Program-made: the position numbers and the translations under genes | Notes under the pieces: generated by a model | Seen by the model: only the letters and a program-made list of their open reading frames with translations | What the model was told of the DNA's origin: nothing | Database searches by the model: none | Assembly (NCBI RefSeq): GCF_018070465.1 | Contig: NZ_JAGPXT010000002.1 | Location: 62,001-126,000 of the forward strand | Length of the DNA: 64,000 nucleotides | DNA from: Micromonospora sp. C95 | Lineage (GTDB): Bacteria > Actinomycetota > Actinomycetes > Mycobacteriales > Micromonosporaceae | Direction: 5' to 3' | In this document: piece by piece, positions 34,692-44,424 of the stretch | How the letters are laid out: each line of letters begins with the position of its first letter | Position numbering within the stretch: position 1 is the first letter of the stretch

Positions 34692-34923
34692 GGCGAGCAC
34701 CGTACCTGCCGGGACCGCCGCGACCGCGGCGAGCCGGCACCACCCCGCCGGGAAACGAAACCGGACAGTACCCCCGCTACGCCGCAACTGTCATTTGTCA
34801 TGACCGGTCGTGCGGCACGCATTCATCTCCATGACTGAAAACACTAGGGACGCCATAGGCCGAACGGACAGACTCGGATCCATCAACAGGACCACAGCCG
34901 GCGGGCGGATGGGAGGCGACACA
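34692..34923 (+). promoter_or_regulatory. Promoter region of the ram-like lanthipeptide operon
   Basis: 232 bases with lower GC than the surroundings and no gene. It contains close direct repeats TGTCATT/TGTCATG near 34790-34805 and a possible -10 (CACTAGGGA) near 34850. RamR-type activators bind such regions in streptomycetes, but I cannot define sites by eye. Confidence 0.4.
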
Positions 34924-37518
34924 GTGGACGAGCGCTACGACAGCTACTGCGCAGCCGACCCGCTGTTCTACGACTCCCTCGGCAGCGCCGTCGCGCAGCC
35001 CACCTTCGCCGCGGCGACCCGGCCGCTGCCGGCGGGCTGGCGCCGGGAGTCGCTCGACGACTGGCTCATCCACGCTCCGGACGGCGAACGCCTGCCGCAG
35101 CAGGGCTGGAAGGTGCACGTGTCGGCCACGGTCACCAACGCCGACCGGGTGCTGGATGCCGTGTGGGCCTACTGCGTACCCCGGGGGCTGTCCTTCAAGT
35201 TCCTGCGCGGCCCCCGCACCCTGCTGCTGCGCAACTCCAAGTACGCGGCCCGTGCCGCCAGCGGCAAGTTCGTCACCGTCTACCCCCGCGACGACGCCGA
35301 ACTCGAACTGGTCTGCAAGGAACTGGACGAGCTGCTCACCGGCGAGGCCGGCCCGTACATCCTCAGCGACCTGCGCTACGCCGCCGGACCGGTGTACGTC
35401 CGCTACGGCGGCTTCGCCGCCCGGTACTGCCACTCCGCCGACGGGCAGGTGGTCCCGGCCGTCGAGGACGAGTCCGGCACCCTGGTGCCGGACCGTCGCG
35501 ACCCGGTCTTCCACGTGCCGTCCTGGGTGGCACTGCCCGACTTCCTCGCGCCACACCTGGCCGCCCGCAACGCGACAAGCACCGACGAGGTCCCCTACCG
35601 GATCGAGAAGGTCATCCACTTCTCCAACGGCGGCGGCCTGTACGTCGGACGCGACGTGCGCACCGACACGCAGCTCGTGTTCAAGGAGGCCCGGCCGCAC
35701 GCCGGCCTGGACGCCGACGGCGTCGACGCCGTCACCCGGCTGGCTCGGGAGGCCGCCGTCCTGCGCCAGCTCGCCGACCTGCCGCAGGTGCCCCGGGTGC
35801 ACGACGAGTTCGCCCTGAGCGACCACCGGTTCCTCGCCCTGGAGTTCATCGAGGGCCGCCCGCTGAACAAGCTCCTGGTCGAGCGCTACCCGCTTATCGA
35901 CGCCGACGCCACCGACGACGACCGGGCGGCGTACGCGAGCTGGGCGCTGGACGTCCACCGCCAGGTCGACGAGGTCGTCCGGGAGATCCACGCGCGCGGG
36001 CTGGTCTACGGTGACCTGCACCTGTTCAACATCATGCTGCGTCCGGACGGCCGGGTCGCGCTCGTCGACTTCGAGGTGGCCGCCCCGGTCGACGGGCACC
36101 GCCGACCGGGCCTGCGCAACCAGGGCTTCGCCGCACCCCGGGGACGCACCGGCGTGGCCGTCGACCACTACGCCCTGGCCTGCCTGCGGCTGGCCCTGTT
36201 CCTGCCGCTGACCCAGCTGGTCCGCCTCGTCCCGGCGAAGGCGGCGCACCTGGCCGACATCATCGCCGACGCCTTCCCAGTGCCGAGGGACTTCCTCGAC
36301 GCCGCGGTGGCGGAGATCAGCACGCCGGACGCCCGGCCCGGGGAACCCGTACCGCCCACCGCCGACGTGCCACCCGTCGACCGGGACAAGCTCACCCGCG
36401 CCGTCCTCGCCAGCGCCACTCCCGACCGCGCCGACCGGCTGTTCCCCGGCGACATCGAACAGTTCCGCAGCGGCGGGCTCAACCTCGCCCACGGTGCGGC
36501 CGGCGTGCTGTACGCGTTGCACCGCAGCGGCGCTGGCCGGTGGCCGGACCACGAACAGTGGCTGGTCCGCCAGGCCACCGCACCCCCGTCGGGCACCCGG
36601 TGCGGCTTCTACGACGGCCTGCACGGCGTCGCGTACGCCCTGGAACTGCTCGGCCGCCGGCAGGACGCGCTCGACGTGCTCGACATCTGCCTACGCGAGT
36701 CGACCACCGGGCTGGACCACAGCCTGACCGGCGGGCTGGCGGGCATCGCCCTCAACCTGGCCGAGCTGGGCGGGCGTACCGGGGAACCGGCGCTACGGGA
36801 GGCGGCCTGGCAGGTCACCGGAGAGTTGGTGGAACGACTCGCCGACGACCCCGGCGGCGACGTCAGCGGGGGGCGACACCCCTACGCCGGGCTGCTCCGC
36901 GGCCGGACCGGAGCGGCGTTGCTGCTGGTACGACTGTACGAGCTGACCGGCGACCCGGACCTGCTCGACCACGCCGCCACCGCGCTGCGCCAGGACCTGC
37001 GTCGCTGCGTGGTCCGACCCGACGGTGCGCTCGAGGTCAACGAGGGTTGGCGGACCATGCCCTACCTGGGGCAGGGCAGCGTCGGCATCGGGCTCGTCCT
37101 CGACCAGTACCTGCGCCACCGCCACGACGAGCAGTTCGCCGAGGCGAGCGCCGGGGTGCGGCGCGCCGCCCGGTCGCCGTTCTACGCCCAGTCCGGCCTC
37201 TTCGCGGGTCGGGCCGGCATCATCGTCTACCTCGCCGCCCAACCCGACGATCCGGAGCTACGCGACGAGCTGGACCGGCAGATCCGACGGCTGAACTGGC
37301 ACGCCCTGCCCTACCGGGACGGCACCGCCTTCCCCGGCGAGCAGTTGCTGCGGCTGTCCATGGACCTCGCCACCGGCACCGCGGGCGTACTGCTGGCGCT
37401 GGCCGCCGCCCGGACCGACGACCCGGCGGCCCTGCCCTTCCTCGCGCCCCTCACCGGCGCACCAGACTCCCCCGCGACGGCGGGGGCGACCCTGACCCCG
37501 ATTCCCGATGGGAGGTGA
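34924..37518 (+). CDS. ramC: Class III lanthipeptide synthetase (LanKC, RamC-like)
   Basis: Bifunctional enzyme that phosphorylates and dehydrates Ser/Thr in the precursor and then forms lanthionine or labionin rings. About 864 residues: an N-terminal lyase-like domain (1 to ~210), a kinase domain with the Gly-rich KVIHFSNGGGLYVG near 233, catalytic loop GLVYGDLHLFNIM near 358 and VDFE in place of DFG, and a LanC-like cyclase from about 500. The cyclase lacks the Cys/Cys-His zinc ligands (it has GLFAGRAGI where class I/II enzymes have CHG), as in class III. The GTG at 34924 sits seven bases after GGGAGG; earlier ATGs are less likely. It starts the ram operon. Confidence 0.93.
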   Translation: MDERYDSYCAADPLFYDSLGSAVAQPTFAAATRPLPAGWRRESLDDWLIHAPDGERLPQQGWKVHVSATVTNADRVLDAVWAYCVPRGLSFKFLRGPRTLLLRNSKYAARAASGKFVTVYPRDDAELELVCKELDELLTGEAGPYILSDLRYAAGPVYVRYGGFAARYCHSADGQVVPAVEDESGTLVPDRRDPVFHVPSWVALPDFLAPHLAARNATSTDEVPYRIEKVIHFSNGGGLYVGRDVRTDTQLVFKEARPHAGLDADGVDAVTRLAREAAVLRQLADLPQVPRVHDEFALSDHRFLALEFIEGRPLNKLLVERYPLIDADATDDDRAAYASWALDVHRQVDEVVREIHARGLVYGDLHLFNIMLRPDGRVALVDFEVAAPVDGHRRPGLRNQGFAAPRGRTGVAVDHYALACLRLALFLPLTQLVRLVPAKAAHLADIIADAFPVPRDFLDAAVAEISTPDARPGEPVPPTADVPPVDRDKLTRAVLASATPDRADRLFPGDIEQFRSGGLNLAHGAAGVLYALHRSGAGRWPDHEQWLVRQATAPPSGTRCGFYDGLHGVAYALELLGRRQDALDVLDICLRESTTGLDHSLTGGLAGIALNLAELGGRTGEPALREAAWQVTGELVERLADDPGGDVSGGRHPYAGLLRGRTGAALLLVRLYELTGDPDLLDHAATALRQDLRRCVVRPDGALEVNEGWRTMPYLGQGSVGIGLVLDQYLRHRHDEQFAEASAGVRRAARSPFYAQSGLFAGRAGIIVYLAAQPDDPELRDELDRQIRRLNWHALPYRDGTAFPGEQLLRLSMDLATGTAGVLLALAAARTDDPAALPFLAPLTGAPDSPATAGATLTPIPDGR

Positions 37519-37524
37519 CACGAC

Positions 37525-37644
37525 ATGGCGCTCCTCGACCTTCAGGGACTGGAGGCGGCTCCGGCCGACCGGACCGGCGGTGGTAGCCGGGCGAGCCTGC
37601 TGCTCTGCGGCGACAGCTCGCTGTCCGTGACGACCTGCAACTGA
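37525..37644 (+). CDS. ramS: SapB-like class III lanthipeptide precursor (RamS/AmfS type)
   Basis: A 39-codon gene with GGGAGG upstream that overlaps the stop of the synthetase gene. The leader MALLDLQGLE has the LLDLQ motif needed for class III recognition. The core SRASLLLCGDSSLSVTTCN differs from my memory of the S. coelicolor SapB core at only one position (Val for Ile). It contains two SxxSxxxC motifs (Ser21-Ser24-Cys28 and Ser31-Ser34-Cys38) suited to two rings. The mature product is expected to be an amphiphilic, secreted morphogen/biosurfactant peptide. Too short for routine ORF calling. Confidence 0.95.
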   Translation: MALLDLQGLEAAPADRTGGGSRASLLLCGDSSLSVTTCN

Positions 37645-37717
37645 TCGGACCGCAGCACGCGAGGCCCTGGACGGTTACCTGACCGTCCAGGGCCACGCCG
37701 CACGAACGGGAGGACCG

Positions 37718-39448
37718 ATGCGAACGCCGGCCGGCGCCGACCGCCTGCTGCTCCGGGTGGTCCGCGACGGTGGCGGCTGGACCGCCACGCTTGTGGTGGT
37801 GGGTCTGGCCGGTGCCGCCGCCGAACTGGCCCTGCCCGCGGTGCTGGGGCTGGCCGTGGATGCCGCCGTCGGTGGTGACGCCTCTCCCCGATGGCCGGTG
37901 GTCGCCAGCGCCCTGGTCGTCATCCTGCTGGTCACCGACGTCCTCGGTGACCTGGCGGGCGGGTACGGGGCCGCCCGGGCCACCGCCCGGCTCCGTCGGC
38001 GGCTGCTGCGGCACCTGTTCGCGTTGGACGTTCGAGCCGTGCGCCGCTTCCCGGTCGGTGACCTGGTCGGCCGGCTCACCGGGCAGGCCGCCGACACCGG
38101 GCAGGCCGGCACCGCAGTGGCGCTGGGCTGGATCGCGGTACTGCCGCCGCTGGGCAGTGTCGTGGCCCTGTTCCTGCTGGAGCCCGTCCTCGGGCTCACC
38201 CTGCTCGCCGGGCTGGCCGTGCTGACCGTCCTCATGGCCACGTTCGTCACCGACGCCTCGGCGGCCATCACCGCGTACCAGCGGGTACTCGGGACGATCG
38301 CCGGCCGGCTACAGGAGGCGCTCGGGGGGGCCCGCACCATCGCCGCAGCCGGCACCACCGACACCGAGCGCGACCGGGTGCTGGCGACACTGCCGCAACT
38401 ACGCGGCCACGGCCGGCTCGGCTGGCGGTTGCTGGCCCGGGCCAACGCCCGCGTCGCGGCCGTGGCACCGCTGCTCCAGGTCGCCGTCGTCGCCGTCGGC
38501 GGGTACGCGCTGAGCGTCGGCTGGCTCACCGCCGGTCAACTGGTCGCCGCCGTGCAGTACGCCGCGCTCGGGGCCGGGTTGGGCGCGGTGCTGGCCACCC
38601 TCAACCGGCTGGTCCGCAGCCGGGCAGCGGCCCGCCGGGTCGCCGAGCCGTTGTCCTGTCCGGTGCGCCCCGATGGCGACGAGCCGTTGCCGCCCGGCGG
38701 CGGCCATCTGCGGCTGCGCGGGGTCGGTGTCCGCGCCGACGACGACCGGGCGGTCCTGGACGCGATCGACCTGGACGTGCCCGCGGGTTGCACGCTGGCC
38801 GTGGTCGGGCGTTCCGGGGCCGGCAAGTCCGCCCTCGCCGCCGTGGCCGGGCGGTTGTACGACCCGGACACCGGCGAGGTGCTGCTGGACGGGGTGCCAC
38901 TGGCCCGTCTCGGCCGGGCCGCGCTGCGTCGGGCGGTGGGTCACGCCTTCGACCGTCCGGTGCTTGTCGGTGTGACGGTGCACGACGCGATCGGCCTCGG
39001 CCTGCCGGAACGGTCGGCTCGCCCGCCCTCGACAGGTGCGCCGGCCACCGCCGCCGTGCTGGCGGCGGCCCGGTCCGCGCAGATCGACGGGGTCGTGGCC
39101 CGGCTGCCCGACGGGTTCCGCACCCGGACCGCAGACGCACCGCTGTCCGGGGGTGAGACCCAACGCCTCGGGCTGGCTCGCGCGTTCCACGCCGAGCGGC
39201 TGCTCATCCTCGACGACGCGACATCCAGCCTGGACACCGCCACCGAACATCGGATCACCCGTGCGATGACCGGCCGGAACGCGGGACGTACCCGCCTGGT
39301 GGTCACCCACCGGGTGGCCACGGCCGCCGCGGCGGACCTGGTCGCCTGGCTCGACGCCGGTCGGCTGCGCGCCCTGGCACCGCATCGGCGGCTCTGGGCG
39401 GACCCGGACTACCGGGCGGTGTTCGCGGACGACGGTGTCCCCCGATGA
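37718..39448 (+). CDS. ramA: ABC half-transporter of the lanthipeptide operon (RamA-like)
   Basis: 576 residues: about six membrane segments in the first 310, then an ATPase with Walker A GRSGAGKS (near 366), signature LSGGE (near 475) and Walker B LLILDDATSSLD. H-loop VVTHRVATA. Starts at ATG 37718 behind GGGAGGACC. Pairs with the next gene, whose start overlaps its stop (ATGA), to form a heterodimeric exporter for the modified peptide. A leader peptidase domain is absent, as usual for class III clusters, so the protease is elsewhere. Confidence 0.9.
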   Translation: MRTPAGADRLLLRVVRDGGGWTATLVVVGLAGAAAELALPAVLGLAVDAAVGGDASPRWPVVASALVVILLVTDVLGDLAGGYGAARATARLRRRLLRHLFALDVRAVRRFPVGDLVGRLTGQAADTGQAGTAVALGWIAVLPPLGSVVALFLLEPVLGLTLLAGLAVLTVLMATFVTDASAAITAYQRVLGTIAGRLQEALGGARTIAAAGTTDTERDRVLATLPQLRGHGRLGWRLLARANARVAAVAPLLQVAVVAVGGYALSVGWLTAGQLVAAVQYAALGAGLGAVLATLNRLVRSRAAARRVAEPLSCPVRPDGDEPLPPGGGHLRLRGVGVRADDDRAVLDAIDLDVPAGCTLAVVGRSGAGKSALAAVAGRLYDPDTGEVLLDGVPLARLGRAALRRAVGHAFDRPVLVGVTVHDAIGLGLPERSARPPSTGAPATAAVLAAARSAQIDGVVARLPDGFRTRTADAPLSGGETQRLGLARAFHAERLLILDDATSSLDTATEHRITRAMTGRNAGRTRLVVTHRVATAAAADLVAWLDAGRLRALAPHRRLWADPDYRAVFADDGVPR

Positions 39449-41220
39449 ACGGCCCGGGCGTCGGTCGGACGACGTGGCAGGCGCTGCGGGCACGTCGCCG
39501 GCACGTCGGCCGGCTCGCCGCCTGGTCGGCGGTCGAGTCCTTGCCGGCGCTGCTTGCCGGGCTGCTCGTTGCCCGCGCCGTCGACCAGGGCTTCCTGGCT
39601 GGTCGGTTCGCCACCGGCCTGGCCTGGCTGGGCGGACTCGCCGTGGCCGTCGTGCTCGGCGCGGTGGCGACCGGGCGGGTCTACCGGAGCCTGGGCTCAG
39701 TCGTGGAACCGTTCCGCGACGAGCTGGCTCGAATGGTGGTCCACGGCGCGTTGCACGACGCCACCCGGGCCGGTGGTCGCCCGGACAGCGCCCCGGTGGC
39801 CCGCTTGACCCATCACGTGGAGATCGTCCGGGACACCTTCGGTGGCCTGGTCATGGTGGTACGCGGCTTCCTGTTCACCGCCGGAGCGGCCCTGCTCGGC
39901 CTGCTGGCGCTGGACCCTACGGTCGCGGCGCTGGTGGCGGCTCCGCTGCTCGCGGGGCTTGTCGTCTTCGCCGCCGCGCTTCCCGCGATGCTGGCACACC
40001 AGCGCACCCAGGTGCGGGTCGGCGAGGCGCTCGGCCGGTCGGCGGCGACCGCGCTGACCGGTCACCGCGACGTGCTCGCCTGCGGCGCCGAGGAACGTAC
40101 GCTGACCGAGGTCGACCGGAGGGTCAGCAACCATGCCGGCGCAGAGCGGACGCTGGCCCGGATGTCCGCGCTGCGCAGCCTCAGCCTCGGGGTGGGCGGC
40201 TGGCTGCCGGTGGTGGTCCTGCTGCTCGCCGCCCCGTGGCTGGTGCGGCGCGGGCTGAGCACCGGCGCGGTGCTCGGCGCACTGGTCTACGTCACCACCA
40301 GCCTGCAACCCGCGCTGCACGCACTGGTGCAGGGGCTGGGTGGCGGAGGGCTGCGCTACGCCGTCACCCTGGAACGGATCCTGCGCACCTGCCGACCTCC
40401 GTCGCCCCGCAAGCGGACGGCCACCCCGATCCCGGAGCCGGTGGACGACACCCCGGCGGTGCGGTTGTCCGGCCTGACCTTCCGGTACGGACCCGGCGCC
40501 CGGCCGATCCTGGACGACTTCTCGATGACCCTGCGCGAGGGGGAACATCTGGCCGTGGTGGGGCCCAGCGGCGCCGGCAAGTCCACCCTGGCCGGGCTGG
40601 TCGCCGGACTGGTCGAGCCGGAGCACGGCACGGTTCACCTCGCCGGTCGATCGGTGGCCGCCGTCGGTCCCGCCGACCTGGCCGCGCTGCGGGTGCTCGT
40701 GCCGCAGGAGGCGTACGTGTTCACCGGTTCCCTGGCCGACAACCTCCGCTACCTCTGCCCGGACGCGGACGACACGGCCGTCGAGACCACGCTGGCCCGG
40801 CTCGGCGCCGACGCTCTCGCCCAGCGGCTGGGCGGCCTCGCCGCCACGGTCGACCCCGGCACGCTCTCCGCCGGTGAGCGGCAACTGATCGCCGCCGTAC
40901 GCGCCTACCTGGCCCCCGCGCCGCTCGTCATCCTGGACGAGGCGACCTGTCACCTGGACCCGACACTGGAGGCCACCGTCGAGTCGGCCTTCGCTCGGCG
41001 ACCGGGCACCCTGATCGTCATCGCCCACCGGATCAGTTCCGCCGTCCGCGCTCGACGGGTGCTGGTGTTCGACGAGGACGGACCGCTGGACGGCAGCCAT
41101 CAGGAACTGCTGGCTCGCTCGCCCGGCTACCGCGAGCTGGTCGGGCACTGGGACGGTGTCGCGGCGGCGGCCAGCGGCGCTGACCGTGCCGTCAGCGGGG
41201 TCACCGCGCTCCGCGGCTGA
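39445..41220 (+). CDS. ramB: ABC half-transporter of the lanthipeptide operon (RamB-like)
   Basis: 591 residues, again about six membrane segments then an ATPase: Walker A GPSGAGKST (near 373), signature LSAGERQL (Ala for Gly), Walker B LVILDEATCHLD, H-loop IAHRIS. It overlaps the RamA-like gene by four bases. Together they should export the SapB-like peptide. A hairpin follows its stop, ending the plus-strand operon. Confidence 0.9.
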   Translation: MNGPGVGRTTWQALRARRRHVGRLAAWSAVESLPALLAGLLVARAVDQGFLAGRFATGLAWLGGLAVAVVLGAVATGRVYRSLGSVVEPFRDELARMVVHGALHDATRAGGRPDSAPVARLTHHVEIVRDTFGGLVMVVRGFLFTAGAALLGLLALDPTVAALVAAPLLAGLVVFAAALPAMLAHQRTQVRVGEALGRSAATALTGHRDVLACGAEERTLTEVDRRVSNHAGAERTLARMSALRSLSLGVGGWLPVVVLLLAAPWLVRRGLSTGAVLGALVYVTTSLQPALHALVQGLGGGGLRYAVTLERILRTCRPPSPRKRTATPIPEPVDDTPAVRLSGLTFRYGPGARPILDDFSMTLREGEHLAVVGPSGAGKSTLAGLVAGLVEPEHGTVHLAGRSVAAVGPADLAALRVLVPQEAYVFTGSLADNLRYLCPDADDTAVETTLARLGADALAQRLGGLAATVDPGTLSAGERQLIAAVRAYLAPAPLVILDEATCHLDPTLEATVESAFARRPGTLIVIAHRISSAVRARRVLVFDEDGPLDGSHQELLARSPGYRELVGHWDGVAAAASGADRAVSGVTALRG

Positions 41221-41221
41221 C

Positions 41222-41237
41222 CTTCCCGTGCGGGAAG
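41222..41237. terminator. Hairpin between convergent ramB-like and regulator genes
   Basis: CTTCCC-GTGC-GGGAAG, a compact hairpin two bases after the ramB-like stop and 13 bases before the regulator stop. No T-run. Probably shared terminator. Confidence 0.5.
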
Positions 41238-41249
41238 CGTGCGGCTCGG

Positions 41250-41828
41250 TCAGATCCAGCCGGCGTCGCGGGCCACCTGGACCGCCTCGACTCTGGTGCG
41301 TCCGCCCGTCTTCCGGATGATCCGGCCGAGATGATTACGGACCGTGCCAGGGGCGAGACCCAGCGATCCGGCCACCTCCGCGACCGGTGCACCACCCGCC
41401 GTCAGGTCGAGGATCTGTGCCTCACGCGGCGTGAGCGGGCTGTCCCGGCGCAGCGCCGCCAGCACCAGGTCCGCGTCCACCACCGGCTCACCACGGGACA
41501 ACCGGCGGATTCCGTCGACCACCCGCTGCGGCGGGACGTCGCTGCCGAGTACACCGACGGTGCGGGAGGGGGTGAGCGTCCGGTACAGGTGCCCGGCCCG
41601 GCGCGGCTCGGCGAGCACCAGCAGCGGACAGGAGCCGGTCGCCGGCATCTTCTCGACGAGGTCGAGGTCGACCACTGCCACGTCCGGACGACGGGTACGG
41701 ATCGTCCAGGTGACCACGTCACCCCGAGCCACCTCCGCCACCACGCTGATGTCGTCCTCAGCGGCGAGCACGAGGGACAGGGCACCACGGACCAGTGCAC
41801 CATCGATTGCGAGCAGGGTACGGATCAC
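41250..41828 (-). CDS. LuxR/NarL-type regulator with degenerate receiver (RamR-like, first copy)
   Basis: About 192 residues starting at GTG 41828, six bases after GGAGAG. The receiver half keeps the central Asp region (VAVVDLDLVEK) but the acidic pair is replaced (TLLAIDGAL) and the usual Lys near the end is missing (VGVLGSDVP), so phosphorylation is doubtful. The C-terminal HTH LTPREAQILDLTAGGAPVAE, LAPGTVRNHLGRI is intact. It faces the lanthipeptide operon and resembles the next gene in length and HTH. By position it is a candidate activator of the ram operon. Confidence 0.82.
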   Translation of the reverse strand: MIRTLLAIDGALVRGALSLVLAAEDDISVVAEVARGDVVTWTIRTRRPDVAVVDLDLVEKMPATGSCPLLVLAEPRRAGHLYRTLTPSRTVGVLGSDVPPQRVVDGIRRLSRGEPVVDADLVLAALRRDSPLTPREAQILDLTAGGAPVAEVAGSLGLAPGTVRNHLGRIIRKTGGRTRVEAVQVARDAGWI

Positions 41829-41918
41829 CGCAGGCTCTCCGAACATCGTCGGGTGGATCACGTAACGTCAGCATTCAAACACGGCCCGGCCGGTTCCGCC
41901 CGCCGACGGCCGGCGGCC

Positions 41919-41950
41919 GGCTGGGAGCCGCCGCCCGGCGGCCCCCAGCC
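41919..41950. terminator. Strong hairpin between the two LuxR-type regulators
   Basis: Outer arms GGCTGGG/CCCAGCC (41919-41925 and 41944-41950) with an inner GCCGCC/GGCGGC stem. It starts five bases after the stop of the upstream regulator (minus strand) and suggests the two regulators are separate transcripts. Confidence 0.65.
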
Positions 41951-41954
41951 ACGG

Positions 41955-42560
41955 TCACATCCAGCCGTCACGACGCGCGAGCAGGACCGCCTCCATCCGG
42001 TTGCGGGCACCGGTCTTGCGCATGATCGCCGACAGGTGGTTACGCACCGTGCCGTGCGCCAGGAACAGCCGTTCGGCGATCTCCTTCAGCGGCAGTCCCT
42101 CGGCCGCCATCCGCAGCACCTCTGCCTCCCGCGGCGTCAGCGGGCCGGTGGCGGGCCGTAGCGCCGTCGCGGCGGCGGCCACGTCGATGATCCGGTCCCC
42201 CGCCGCGAGCGCCCGTACGGCCCGGACCAACTCGTGCAGCGGCTCGTCCTTGCCAACCAATCCTTTCGCTCCGGCCGTCAACGCCTCCGTCACCAGGCCC
42301 CGGCTCCACCGGTCACTCAGGGCCAGCACCGCTGTCGCGGGTGCCGCCTCGGTGATCTCGATGATGACCGCCACCGGCTCGGGAGCATCGGATGCCAGGT
42401 CCACAAGGACCACGTCCGGCAGGTGCCGACGCACCATCCCCGGCAACTCACCGATACCCGTCGCCTCGGCGACGACCTGGATGTCCTCCTCACCGGCCAG
42501 TGCCGCGCACAGCGCACTGCGCAGCAGACCCATACTTTCGCCAACCACAACGCGGATCAC
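41955..42560 (-). CDS. LuxR/NarL-type response regulator (RamR-like, second copy)
   Basis: About 201 residues from a GTG at 42560 (GGAG at seven bases). Receiver: VIRVVVGESMGLLRSAL, then VVLVDLASD with the phosphoacceptor Asp and GLVGKDEP with the conserved Lys; the N-terminal acidic pair is replaced by Gly-Glu. HTH: LTPREAEVLRMAAEGLPLKE, FLAHGTVRNHLSAIMRKTG. It looks more like a working receiver than its neighbour. The two share the HTH and the last 12 residues (R.EAV..AR..GW), which suggests duplication. The longer frame upstream is not real. Confidence 0.85.
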   Translation of the reverse strand: MIRVVVGESMGLLRSALCAALAGEEDIQVVAEATGIGELPGMVRRHLPDVVLVDLASDAPEPVAVIIEITEAAPATAVLALSDRWSRGLVTEALTAGAKGLVGKDEPLHELVRAVRALAAGDRIIDVAAAATALRPATGPLTPREAEVLRMAAEGLPLKEIAERLFLAHGTVRNHLSAIMRKTGARNRMEAVLLARRDGWM

Positions 42561-42753
42561 CACGTAGCTCCGATCTGAGTACGCGCCACGGCCGACTCCC
42601 GGTCTCCTCAACGGGACTGCGCAGGGTCGGCCACGCGCCAACGGACTGGGCCCGGCCCGTGGGACGTCGGTTGCGACGGCCCCGGGCACCCGTAGGACCA
42701 GCCGGGCGATCAGCCGGCGGAACACCGGCGGTGCCGGGCGGGTCAGGGCGGAC

Positions 42754-44226
42754 TCAGCCAGGTCGGACGGCCACGCCGGGGGAACGGCCCGCGTACCTGC
42801 CGGGCGGAGGGACATCGGTCCGAGCGCTGGCCGTCGCCAGCACCTGGCACCCGTCGAGGATCATTGCTCGCAGCGGTCCGGGGCCCCCATCGGCACCTGT
42901 GACGCCGTCGCCACCGGGCGGAGGAGGACGCTGCGGAAGGCCGGTCGGCTCCGGCATCGACCCGGGCCCTGCACCGGACGTGCCGGTGGCGGGCCGGTGC
43001 CACCCGAGCGCCACCCCGGCCACCGGCGCGGCCGGCGTAACCTCCCCCGGCGGTGCGGCCCGTGGTGCTGCGGCCCGTGGTGCTGCGGCGGTTGGCGGAT
43101 CAGGTGCCGGCGACGGAGCCGGCGCTGAAACACCCGAGACACCCGCAACCGGGTCGGTGGTCGGCGCCCACGACGTCGGCCTCTCCACGGTGTACGAACC
43201 GACAGCGGAAGCTCGCGGCAGGACGGGAATCATGGGAGTGACCTGGCCCGTGAGCTGCGTGACCGGCGTCGCCATCGTTGCCACGCCGGACGACACCGCC
43301 GCGACGGCTGTGACCAGCACCGGTCGCAGCACAGCCGGCGACCGCACGACGACGGCTCCCGTAGCGGGCAGCTCCGCCAGGCCCGTCGCGGGCAGCTCCG
43401 CCAGGCCCGTCGCGGGCAGCTCCGCCAGGCCCGTCGCGGGCAGCTCCGTGACGAGCGGCGGCGCCAGACCGGTCACGGCCCGGGTCACCTCCGACCGGGG
43501 CGGCAGCGCCCCTCCCTCGCCCGGGACCGGAACCCGGTCGCCGACGTTCGGCACGGTCGACCGGATCGGCGGTACCCCCGGCGTGCGCCCGACCGAATCG
43601 GGGCCCTTCGCAGGCCCGCCCCGCGCTGTCCGGGCAGCCATCGCGCGGTCACCTGGCGCACGGCTGGTCAGGGACCGGTCCGCCGGTGAACGGCTGCCCG
43701 GTGACGGGTCGGCGGACGGACCGTCGGGCGTAGGCACTCGACCGGTACGCGCGGTCGCTGGTGGCCGAGCCGGGCGGTCCCGGGCCGGTCGGCCGTTGCG
43801 CGCCCCGCCTCTCTCGGCACGGCTGTTGTCATCCTGCCGACCGGCATCCGGGGAACCGCGCGTCGAACTCCGGCCCCTACCGGGATGCCGGACGTCCGGG
43901 CGTTCGACGAGGCCGGTGACCAGTTCGTCGAGGGGCGAGGCGGGCCGATCGAGGTCGGGGTGCTGCCGATCCGCGCCGGCCGAGGGAACCTCGGCGCTGT
44001 CCGCGCTGGCCGAGGGAACCTCGGCGTTGTCCGCGCTGGCCGGGTCGCTCGACAAGGCACCGACGAGGAGCCCGACGCCGACGGCGGCGGCTGCCATGAC
44101 GGCGAAACGGGCAACGGCGGCACCTGAGCGCGCTGCCGAGGCGTCGGGTTCCCGCCGGGCGGCGGGCGGACGGCGGAACGTCGGACGACGCACGGAGCCT
44201 CTCTCTCGCTGAGAACGTCGACTCAT
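42754..44226 (-). CDS. Pro/Ala-rich exported or membrane-anchored protein with LPATG repeats
   Basis: About 490 residues of low complexity. An Arg-rich start (MSRRSQRERGSVRRPTFRRP) leads to one hydrophobic segment (FAVMAAAAVGVGLLVGALSS near residues 43-62), either an uncleaved signal anchor or a signal peptide cut at ASA. The rest is disordered, rich in Pro, Ala, Arg, Ser and Thr, with four tandem ELPATGLA units near residues 260-290 and a TPVTQLTGQVTPMIPVLP hydrophobic patch. No known domain. Next to the lanthipeptide locus and divergent from nothing; own promoter likely since a strong terminator precedes it. Function unknown. Confidence 0.65.
   Translation of the reverse strand: MSRRSQRERGSVRRPTFRRPPAARREPDASAARSGAAVARFAVMAAAAVGVGLLVGALSSDPASADNAEVPSASADSAEVPSAGADRQHPDLDRPASPLDELVTGLVERPDVRHPGRGRSSTRGSPDAGRQDDNSRAERGGARNGRPARDRPARPPATARTGRVPTPDGPSADPSPGSRSPADRSLTSRAPGDRAMAARTARGGPAKGPDSVGRTPGVPPIRSTVPNVGDRVPVPGEGGALPPRSEVTRAVTGLAPPLVTELPATGLAELPATGLAELPATGLAELPATGAVVVRSPAVLRPVLVTAVAAVSSGVATMATPVTQLTGQVTPMIPVLPRASAVGSYTVERPTSWAPTTDPVAGVSGVSAPAPSPAPDPPTAAAPRAAAPRAAPPGEVTPAAPVAGVALGWHRPATGTSGAGPGSMPEPTGLPQRPPPPGGDGVTGADGGPGPLRAMILDGCQVLATASARTDVPPPGRYAGRSPGVAVRPG
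43364..43448. repeat. 24-base tandem repeat, 3.5 copies, inside the Pro/Ala-rich gene
   Basis: Unit GCGGGCAGCTCCGCCAGGCC-CGTC at 43364-43387, 43388-43411, 43412-43435 and a 13-base partial copy. The copies are identical in sequence. Each encodes ELPATGLA on the minus strand. Near-perfect identity suggests recent expansion. Confidence 0.95.
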
Positions 44227-44366
44227 CGTATTCAGTCCCTTACCCCGTCGCTTACCGTGCACAACCCGGTGACGGATTGCCGACTCTCCGGCTGACGGTG
44301 GCACTGCCATCCGATAACCGGCACGGACTTACCGCGGGGTTTCACCGCCGATCGCAGGCACCAGAA

Positions 44367-44402
44367 CGCGACAAGCCTTCCGCGTCGGGAAGGCTTGTCG
44401 CG
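44367..44402. terminator. Perfect 15-bp hairpin after tatC
   Basis: CGCGACAAGCCTTCC and GGAAGGCTTGTCGCG pair perfectly around a six-base loop (44367-44381, 44388-44402). It lies 22 bases after the tatC stop (minus strand) and separates the tat operon from the Pro/Ala-rich gene. Confidence 0.85.
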
Positions 44403-44424
44403 TTTACCCGCCAAGCGTCGCGGG

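Follow-up and report, generated by a model that had tools for sequence, protein, structure and literature searches.

SapB is the textbook peptide that breaks surface tension during the aerial growth of Streptomyces. Its gene cluster in Streptomyces coelicolor, ramCSAB–ramR, comprises ramC, ramS, two transporter genes and the gene of a LuxR-type response regulator (PMC4255298). A 64-kb stretch of DNA from Micromonospora sp. C95 (hereafter, the window) contains a locus with the same components. Unlike the S. coelicolor cluster, it has a second regulator gene, no chaplins were detected, and the host belongs to a group described as lacking aerial mycelium. We regard it as a genuine and complete SapB-type operon of an ordinary kind whose developmental setting is unusual; a regulator pair and a hairpin between ramS and ramA are added features.

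AmfS of Streptomyces griseus, durhapeptin and other class III lanthipeptides share with this locus a LanKC synthetase, a leader of the LLDLQ type, two SxxSxxxC motifs and the morphogen class, whereas their core sequences differ from the present one and some of them carry labionin (PMC13380574). Precursors matching a SapB query have been reported from Verrucosispora and Micromonospora (PMC9011353), and SapB clusters have been listed in Micromonospora strains (PMC9967187, PMC7918784). These homologues very probably belong to the same locus family, and the available text of the three genome-mining reports gives precursor or cluster matches only, with nothing on regulators, sites, a hairpin or prevalence. 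The gene family and its presence in Micromonospora and Verrucosispora are already in print, and as a cluster discovery the locus is ordinary. Neither the regulator pair nor the ramS–ramA hairpin was found in the available portions of the literature, by a search that was not aimed by name at a Micromonospora regulator pair. Both features, as well as the prior record of SapB homologues in print, go beyond an initial annotation of this DNA.

The operon and its precursor peptide

The class III lanthipeptide operon lies on the plus strand at 34924–41220 in the order ramC–ramS–ramA–ramB. ramC (34924–37518) encodes a class III lanthionine synthetase (LanKC); its open reading frame (ORF) extends from 34810, and an internal GTG was chosen as the start. 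RamC scores 1119.1 bits against the NCBIfam model lanthi_synth_III (cut-off 575) and contains the Pfam domains RamC_N (279.9 bits), Pkinase (kinase-like) and LANC_like (LanC-like). It stands at 94% to RamC of Verrucosispora sediminis, which agrees with the Micromonospora-like organism supposed in the initial annotation and places the host in the Micromonospora/Verrucosispora lineage. ramS (37525–37644) begins six bases past the ramC stop codon, is preceded by GGAGGT, and encodes a 39-residue precursor of the SapB/AmfS type, MALLDLQGLEAAPADRTGGGSRASLLLCGDSSLSVTTCN. The precursor had been considered too short for normal gene calling. This view does not hold, because curated models exist by which ordinary annotation can find RamS, namely Pfam PF19402 RamS (61.2 bits; cut-off 24.3) and NCBIfam NF033212 SapB/AmfS (65.8 bits; cut-off 25). 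ramA (37718–39448; Pfam ABC_membrane and ABC_tran) and ramB (39445–41220; Pfam ABC_tran, with ABC_membrane below the cut-off) encode two ABC exporter half-transporters and overlap by 4 bases. No peptidase domain was found in RamA or RamB in the Pfam scan.

All parts named in the initial annotation for a complete SapB-type (ram/amf) locus were found in their places, with the RamC and RamS families above the curated cut-offs. The RamC and RamS families, two adjoining half-transporters and a RamR-type regulator, which together mark a ram locus, are all present. The span to 42560 that had been given for the operon needs correction: ramCSAB is there and ends at 41220, and two regulator genes on the minus strand, previously unmentioned, lie inside the span. 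For comparison, we used the best 80 of 274 relatives ranked by RamC similarity, a set that is skewed toward close kin because it was picked as the top RamC matches. The order proposed earlier, ramC, a ramS-like precursor gene, ramA and ramB, is kept in 72 of these 80 loci, Streptomyces included, and therefore the grouping is not due to chance. Seven of the eight exceptions have no ramA or ramB match, mostly where the DNA record ends and in one case at a run of N; in the eighth (L074), the precursor is located elsewhere. No TTA codon occurs in the six genes (the operon and the two regulators), unlike most Streptomyces ram clusters, which have a TTA codon in the ramR-like or ramC gene (PMC4255298).

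The RamS leader (residues 1–20; 37525–37584) includes the LLDLQ motif, and the core (residues 21–39; 37585–37641), SRASLLLCGDSSLSVTTCN, carries the two S-x-x-S-x-x-x-C ring motifs, both as first described; the cleavage point between leader and core is predicted from the sequence. The 19-residue core is identical to that of the ram precursor of Streptomyces xantholiticus. It differs at one of the 19 residues (Val for Ile) from what we take to be the SapB core of S. coelicolor, a sequence for which a literature search gave no paper. A precursor is present in 50 of the 52 Micromonosporaceae loci examined, a set outside which L057 and L058 stand. There is one ramS copy in 38 of these 50 loci, two copies in nine and three in three; the three copies are in tandem in L030, L035 and L044. 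The records of the two loci without a precursor contain a run of N (L021) or end early (L018), and a loss of ramS–ramA–ramB in L021 was rejected because its record shows a run of N and no deletion.

The exact core of the window occurs in 34 of the 65 precursors from the Micromonosporaceae loci. Over 42 distinct DNAs of 39-residue precursors, the six ring Ser/Cys residues and four core Leu residues are invariant, and several leader residues vary. Synonymous variation in the core codons is 0.156, as compared with 0.288 in matched RamC codons, with 70 of 20,000 draws giving a value as low or lower; after thinning from 37 to 19 loci, the same test is weak (1,097 of 20,000 draws), and a constraint at the RNA level is not claimed. 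The precursor of one locus (L024, 11605–11721) has a different core, SNASVVLCPISVMSLITC, in which the SxxSxxxC ring spacing is kept. Lower-identity precursors (58–72%) were also seen in the genomes G033, G050, G068 and G072, and in all five cases the diverged precursor goes with a ramC orthologue at 74–78%.

Judged by its gene content, families and conservation, it is highly probable that the locus is a complete, working SapB-type class III lanthipeptide operon. RamC would bind the LLDLQ leader, dehydrate the Ser residues of both S-x-x-S-x-x-x-C motifs, and then close two lanthionine (or labionin) rings. The four-fold dehydrated core with 0–4 extra N-terminal residues of TGGG has a predicted MH+ of 1854.9–2127.0. 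RamA and RamB would export the peptide, and a protease from outside the locus, perhaps an M1 metallopeptidase like AplP, would remove the leader. The initial annotation rightly listed no leader peptidase in the cluster, and the scan of cluster genes found none. In class III systems the leader can be cut off by unclustered M1 (AplP-like) proteases (PMC10885120), and the host genome has three M1 genes, all outside the window and one of them short. All 11 genomes tested, the three ramS-negative ones among them, have relatives of the short M1 peptidase, which is for this reason no more than a candidate.

The regulator pair and the ramS–ramA hairpin

Two LuxR/NarL-type regulator genes follow on the minus strand. 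R2 (41250–41861; 203 residues; Pfam GerE 47.4 bits) adjoins ramB, and its receiver-like domain keeps the phosphorylatable Asp and lacks the conserved Lys. R1 (41955–42563; GerE 65.6 bits) is a RamR-like LuxR-type response regulator, whose Response_reg score of 30.1 bits is just short of the cut-off of 30.2; its GTG start at 42563 is putative, and the ORF extends to 42815. Both genes are located beside ramB in the window and in all 38 Micromonospora and Plantactinospora loci with a regulator match; five further loci (L006, L009, L018, L032 and L036) have no match, and their DNA records end too early. Actinoplanes sp. KI2 and Catenuloplanes likewise have two regulators, and the 11 of 12 Streptomyces loci with a match have one gene each. 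R1 is the better match to six of these single regulators (41–46%) and R2 to five (37–40%). In a regulator tree of 105 rows, R1 of Micromonospora and Plantactinospora forms one group of 34 rows with support of 92/67, which is below the starred level, and R2 forms one starred group of 38 rows (99/89) that lies closer to the lone regulators found in other Micromonosporaceae and their allies. Both proteins appear to be of the RamR type, and neither is singled out as the strict RamR orthologue.

The receiver residues were compared in paired rows, with R1 of L007 dropped as misaligned and L074 set aside, as its second regulator gene is far from the operon. R2 has the phosphorylatable Asp in 38 of 39 rows and the receiver Lys in none of the 39. 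R1 has the Lys in 31 of 38 rows (three of the other seven are gaps), and its Asp column contains Asp in 22 of 38 rows, Ala in nine, Glu in three, Gly in one and gaps in three. Since R2 lacks the Lys and 13 of 38 R1 rows lack the Asp, both partners are degenerate in many loci, and in a complementary manner. R1 of the window keeps both residues, and the Streptomyces single regulators have the Asp in 11 of 11 and the Lys in nine of 11. We considered R1 as a fully conventional receiver throughout the group and rejected this on the Asp count. R1 and R2 may function jointly, perhaps as a heterodimer like BldM–WhiI. Transcription of the operon is probably under the control of these two adjacent regulators.

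On the same DNA, the plus-strand ORFs at 41331–42161 and 42392–44212 were rejected as genes, having no family match. The former is treated as a shadow frame because it is antisense to the regulator genes.

A perfect 13-bp GC hairpin without a T-run is located between ramS and ramA (37663–37694, plus strand). No terminator-like pattern was found in a scan of 34700–42700. We aligned the 62 bases past the last precursor in 48 of 49 loci; L036 was omitted because its record stops within this segment. In the alignment, 96.1% of the hairpin cells are paired, and seven of the 12 pairs have changed on both sides. The double-change cells number 67 against a shuffled mean of 20.5, and none of 500 shuffles reached 67, a result inflated by the relatedness of the sequences. 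When the partners were slid along the alignment, pairing fell to 60% or less, a comparison in which the unshifted hairpin has an advantage because its structure was derived from 34 of the same loci. The hairpin is a probable RNA processing or attenuation element favoring ramS over the exporters, and would act by letting ramS RNA build up over exporter RNA. No paper was found in a literature search that combined ramS, ramA, SapB and terminator.

Host setting and a proposed surface role

The host belongs to the Verrucosispora group within Micromonospora. Verrucosispora has been described as lacking an aerial mycelium (PMC5754459), and Micromonospora in general as lacking aerial mycelium or hyphae (PMC8146288). 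The chaplin search gave no match in any of four Micromonospora genomes, including that of the window; the control, four Streptomyces genomes, gave 6, 7, 8 and 12 matches. Neither of two marks of SapB–chaplin aerial growth in Streptomyces, chaplin genes and a TTA codon in ramC or ramR, was found here; the TTA codon is frequent but not universal in Streptomyces.

The product is predicted to be an amphiphilic SapB-like peptide that would lower surface tension or coat the colony or spore surface. Because the group is described as lacking aerial mycelium and no chaplin was found, it is probably used at the colony/air or spore/water surface and not to raise aerial hyphae. We rate a surface role without aerial growth at slightly short of an even chance. 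The fuller proposal, that SapB of Micromonosporaceae acts without chaplins or aerial hyphae as a coat or wetting agent of colonies or substrate-borne spores and is switched by the R1/R2 pair, is put forward tentatively and is rather doubtful as a whole.

Distribution, genomic site and alternative roles

A ramS match is present in 82 of 159 genomes of the genus, and RamC is found at E≤1e-100 in 89 of the 159, some of these being only relatives at 45–51%. A sample of the family gave ramS matches in 96 of 300 genomes, spread over 13 of the 42 genera. In the window, the operon has dagK/helicase on one side and tatC/tatA on the other. On the similarity of the left flank, for which 44 of 47 loci were usable, the window and six other loci form one group and the rest fall into nine groups and 11 singletons; these numbers are an upper bound, because divergence can split one site. 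The window and the six loci that share its flank also form one group in the RamC tree (SH-aLRT 99, quick method). Micromonospora RamC as a whole forms two groups, interspersed with Plantactinospora, Actinoplanes and Catenuloplanes, and this interleaving suggests some transfer between genera.

The distance between dagK and tatC was searched in 30 hand-picked genomes and was measurable in 28. The gap is 26–202 bp in 13 of the 28, three of which have ramS elsewhere, and 8.8–9.6 kb in three with the operon at this junction; it is 0.76–13.6 kb in 11, and the genes are far apart in one. The simplest reading is that the operon entered the junction once in the lineage of the window and is accessory within the genus. 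The junction (34788–44424 of the window) is a possible insertion hot spot. Within it, the approximately 1.9 kb from R1 to tatC (42564–44424) gave no family match for the ORFs scanned, and its similarity to close relatives is below that of the neighboring DNA.

Several points weigh against the main reading, a working SapB-type operon with a surface role. The case is built on sequence. The ring type is not readable from the synthetase (PMC13380574). The near-invariance of the core was counted on 39-residue precursors, with other lengths outside the count, and a RamS-type peptide can change, because L024 has a different core beside an orthologous ramC. The pooled dN/dS values (0.42 for core residues 21–39, 0.29 for residues 23–38, 0.23 for the leader and 0.50 for RamC) give no sign that the core is under stronger selection than the leader, and the core dS is low. 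Moreover, 77 of the 159 genus genomes have no ramS match and the flanks of the operon vary among lineages. Because of this patchy presence and these differing flanks, the operon is not required by the genus, and both are compatible with a dispensable accessory product no less than with a structural role. The initial annotation had taken strong conservation as a sign of another role for the peptide; the core is indeed near-invariant in most carriers, but the operon itself is patchy and its sites differ. Patchiness alone is compatible with a developmental role, because in Streptomyces too SapB was present in only half of eight genomes (PMC3848822).

The patchy presence and the differing flanks can also be read as those of an accessory operon that spread horizontally and has a product acting mainly on neighbors, as an inter-species morphogen, an antimicrobial or a biofilm modulator, and not on the development of the producer. 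The placement in a junction that is short in many genomes, the two RamC groups with other genera among them, and the core shared with Streptomyces are all consistent with such spread, as are the relatives at 56–64% on three Streptomyces plasmid records. However, throughout Micromonospora the operon is accompanied by the regulators and the hairpin, an association that suggests long residence and control of its own, and we consider a product directed mainly at neighbors rather unlikely.

It is also conceivable that the operon raises rudimentary aerial hyphae as in Streptomyces, which were overlooked or are medium-dependent. The identity of the core with that of a Streptomyces precursor fits this explanation, and one report, in its available portion, counts both Micromonospora and Verrucosispora among the formers of aerial hyphae (PMC9011353), another point against a surface role without aerial growth. 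In contrast, the group and species descriptions give aerial mycelium as absent, in agreement with the initial annotation, which had expected few or no aerial hyphae, and chaplins were found in none of four Micromonospora genomes as opposed to four of four in Streptomyces. Aerial growth is therefore an unlikely function. An intact but unexpressed relic, with which the patchy retention would agree, is very improbable, as all six genes are open and free of TTA codons and both the core residues and the hairpin pairing are kept.

A near-identical SapB operon in bacteria described without aerial mycelium, with no chaplins found in four genomes, offers a clean test of the peptide alone and makes its role in Micromonospora a testable question. 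For work on SapB-type function, R1 and R2 and the covarying ramS–ramA hairpin provide concrete handles. If the product does act as a coat or wetting agent, the surface function of SapB would be separable from aerial growth.

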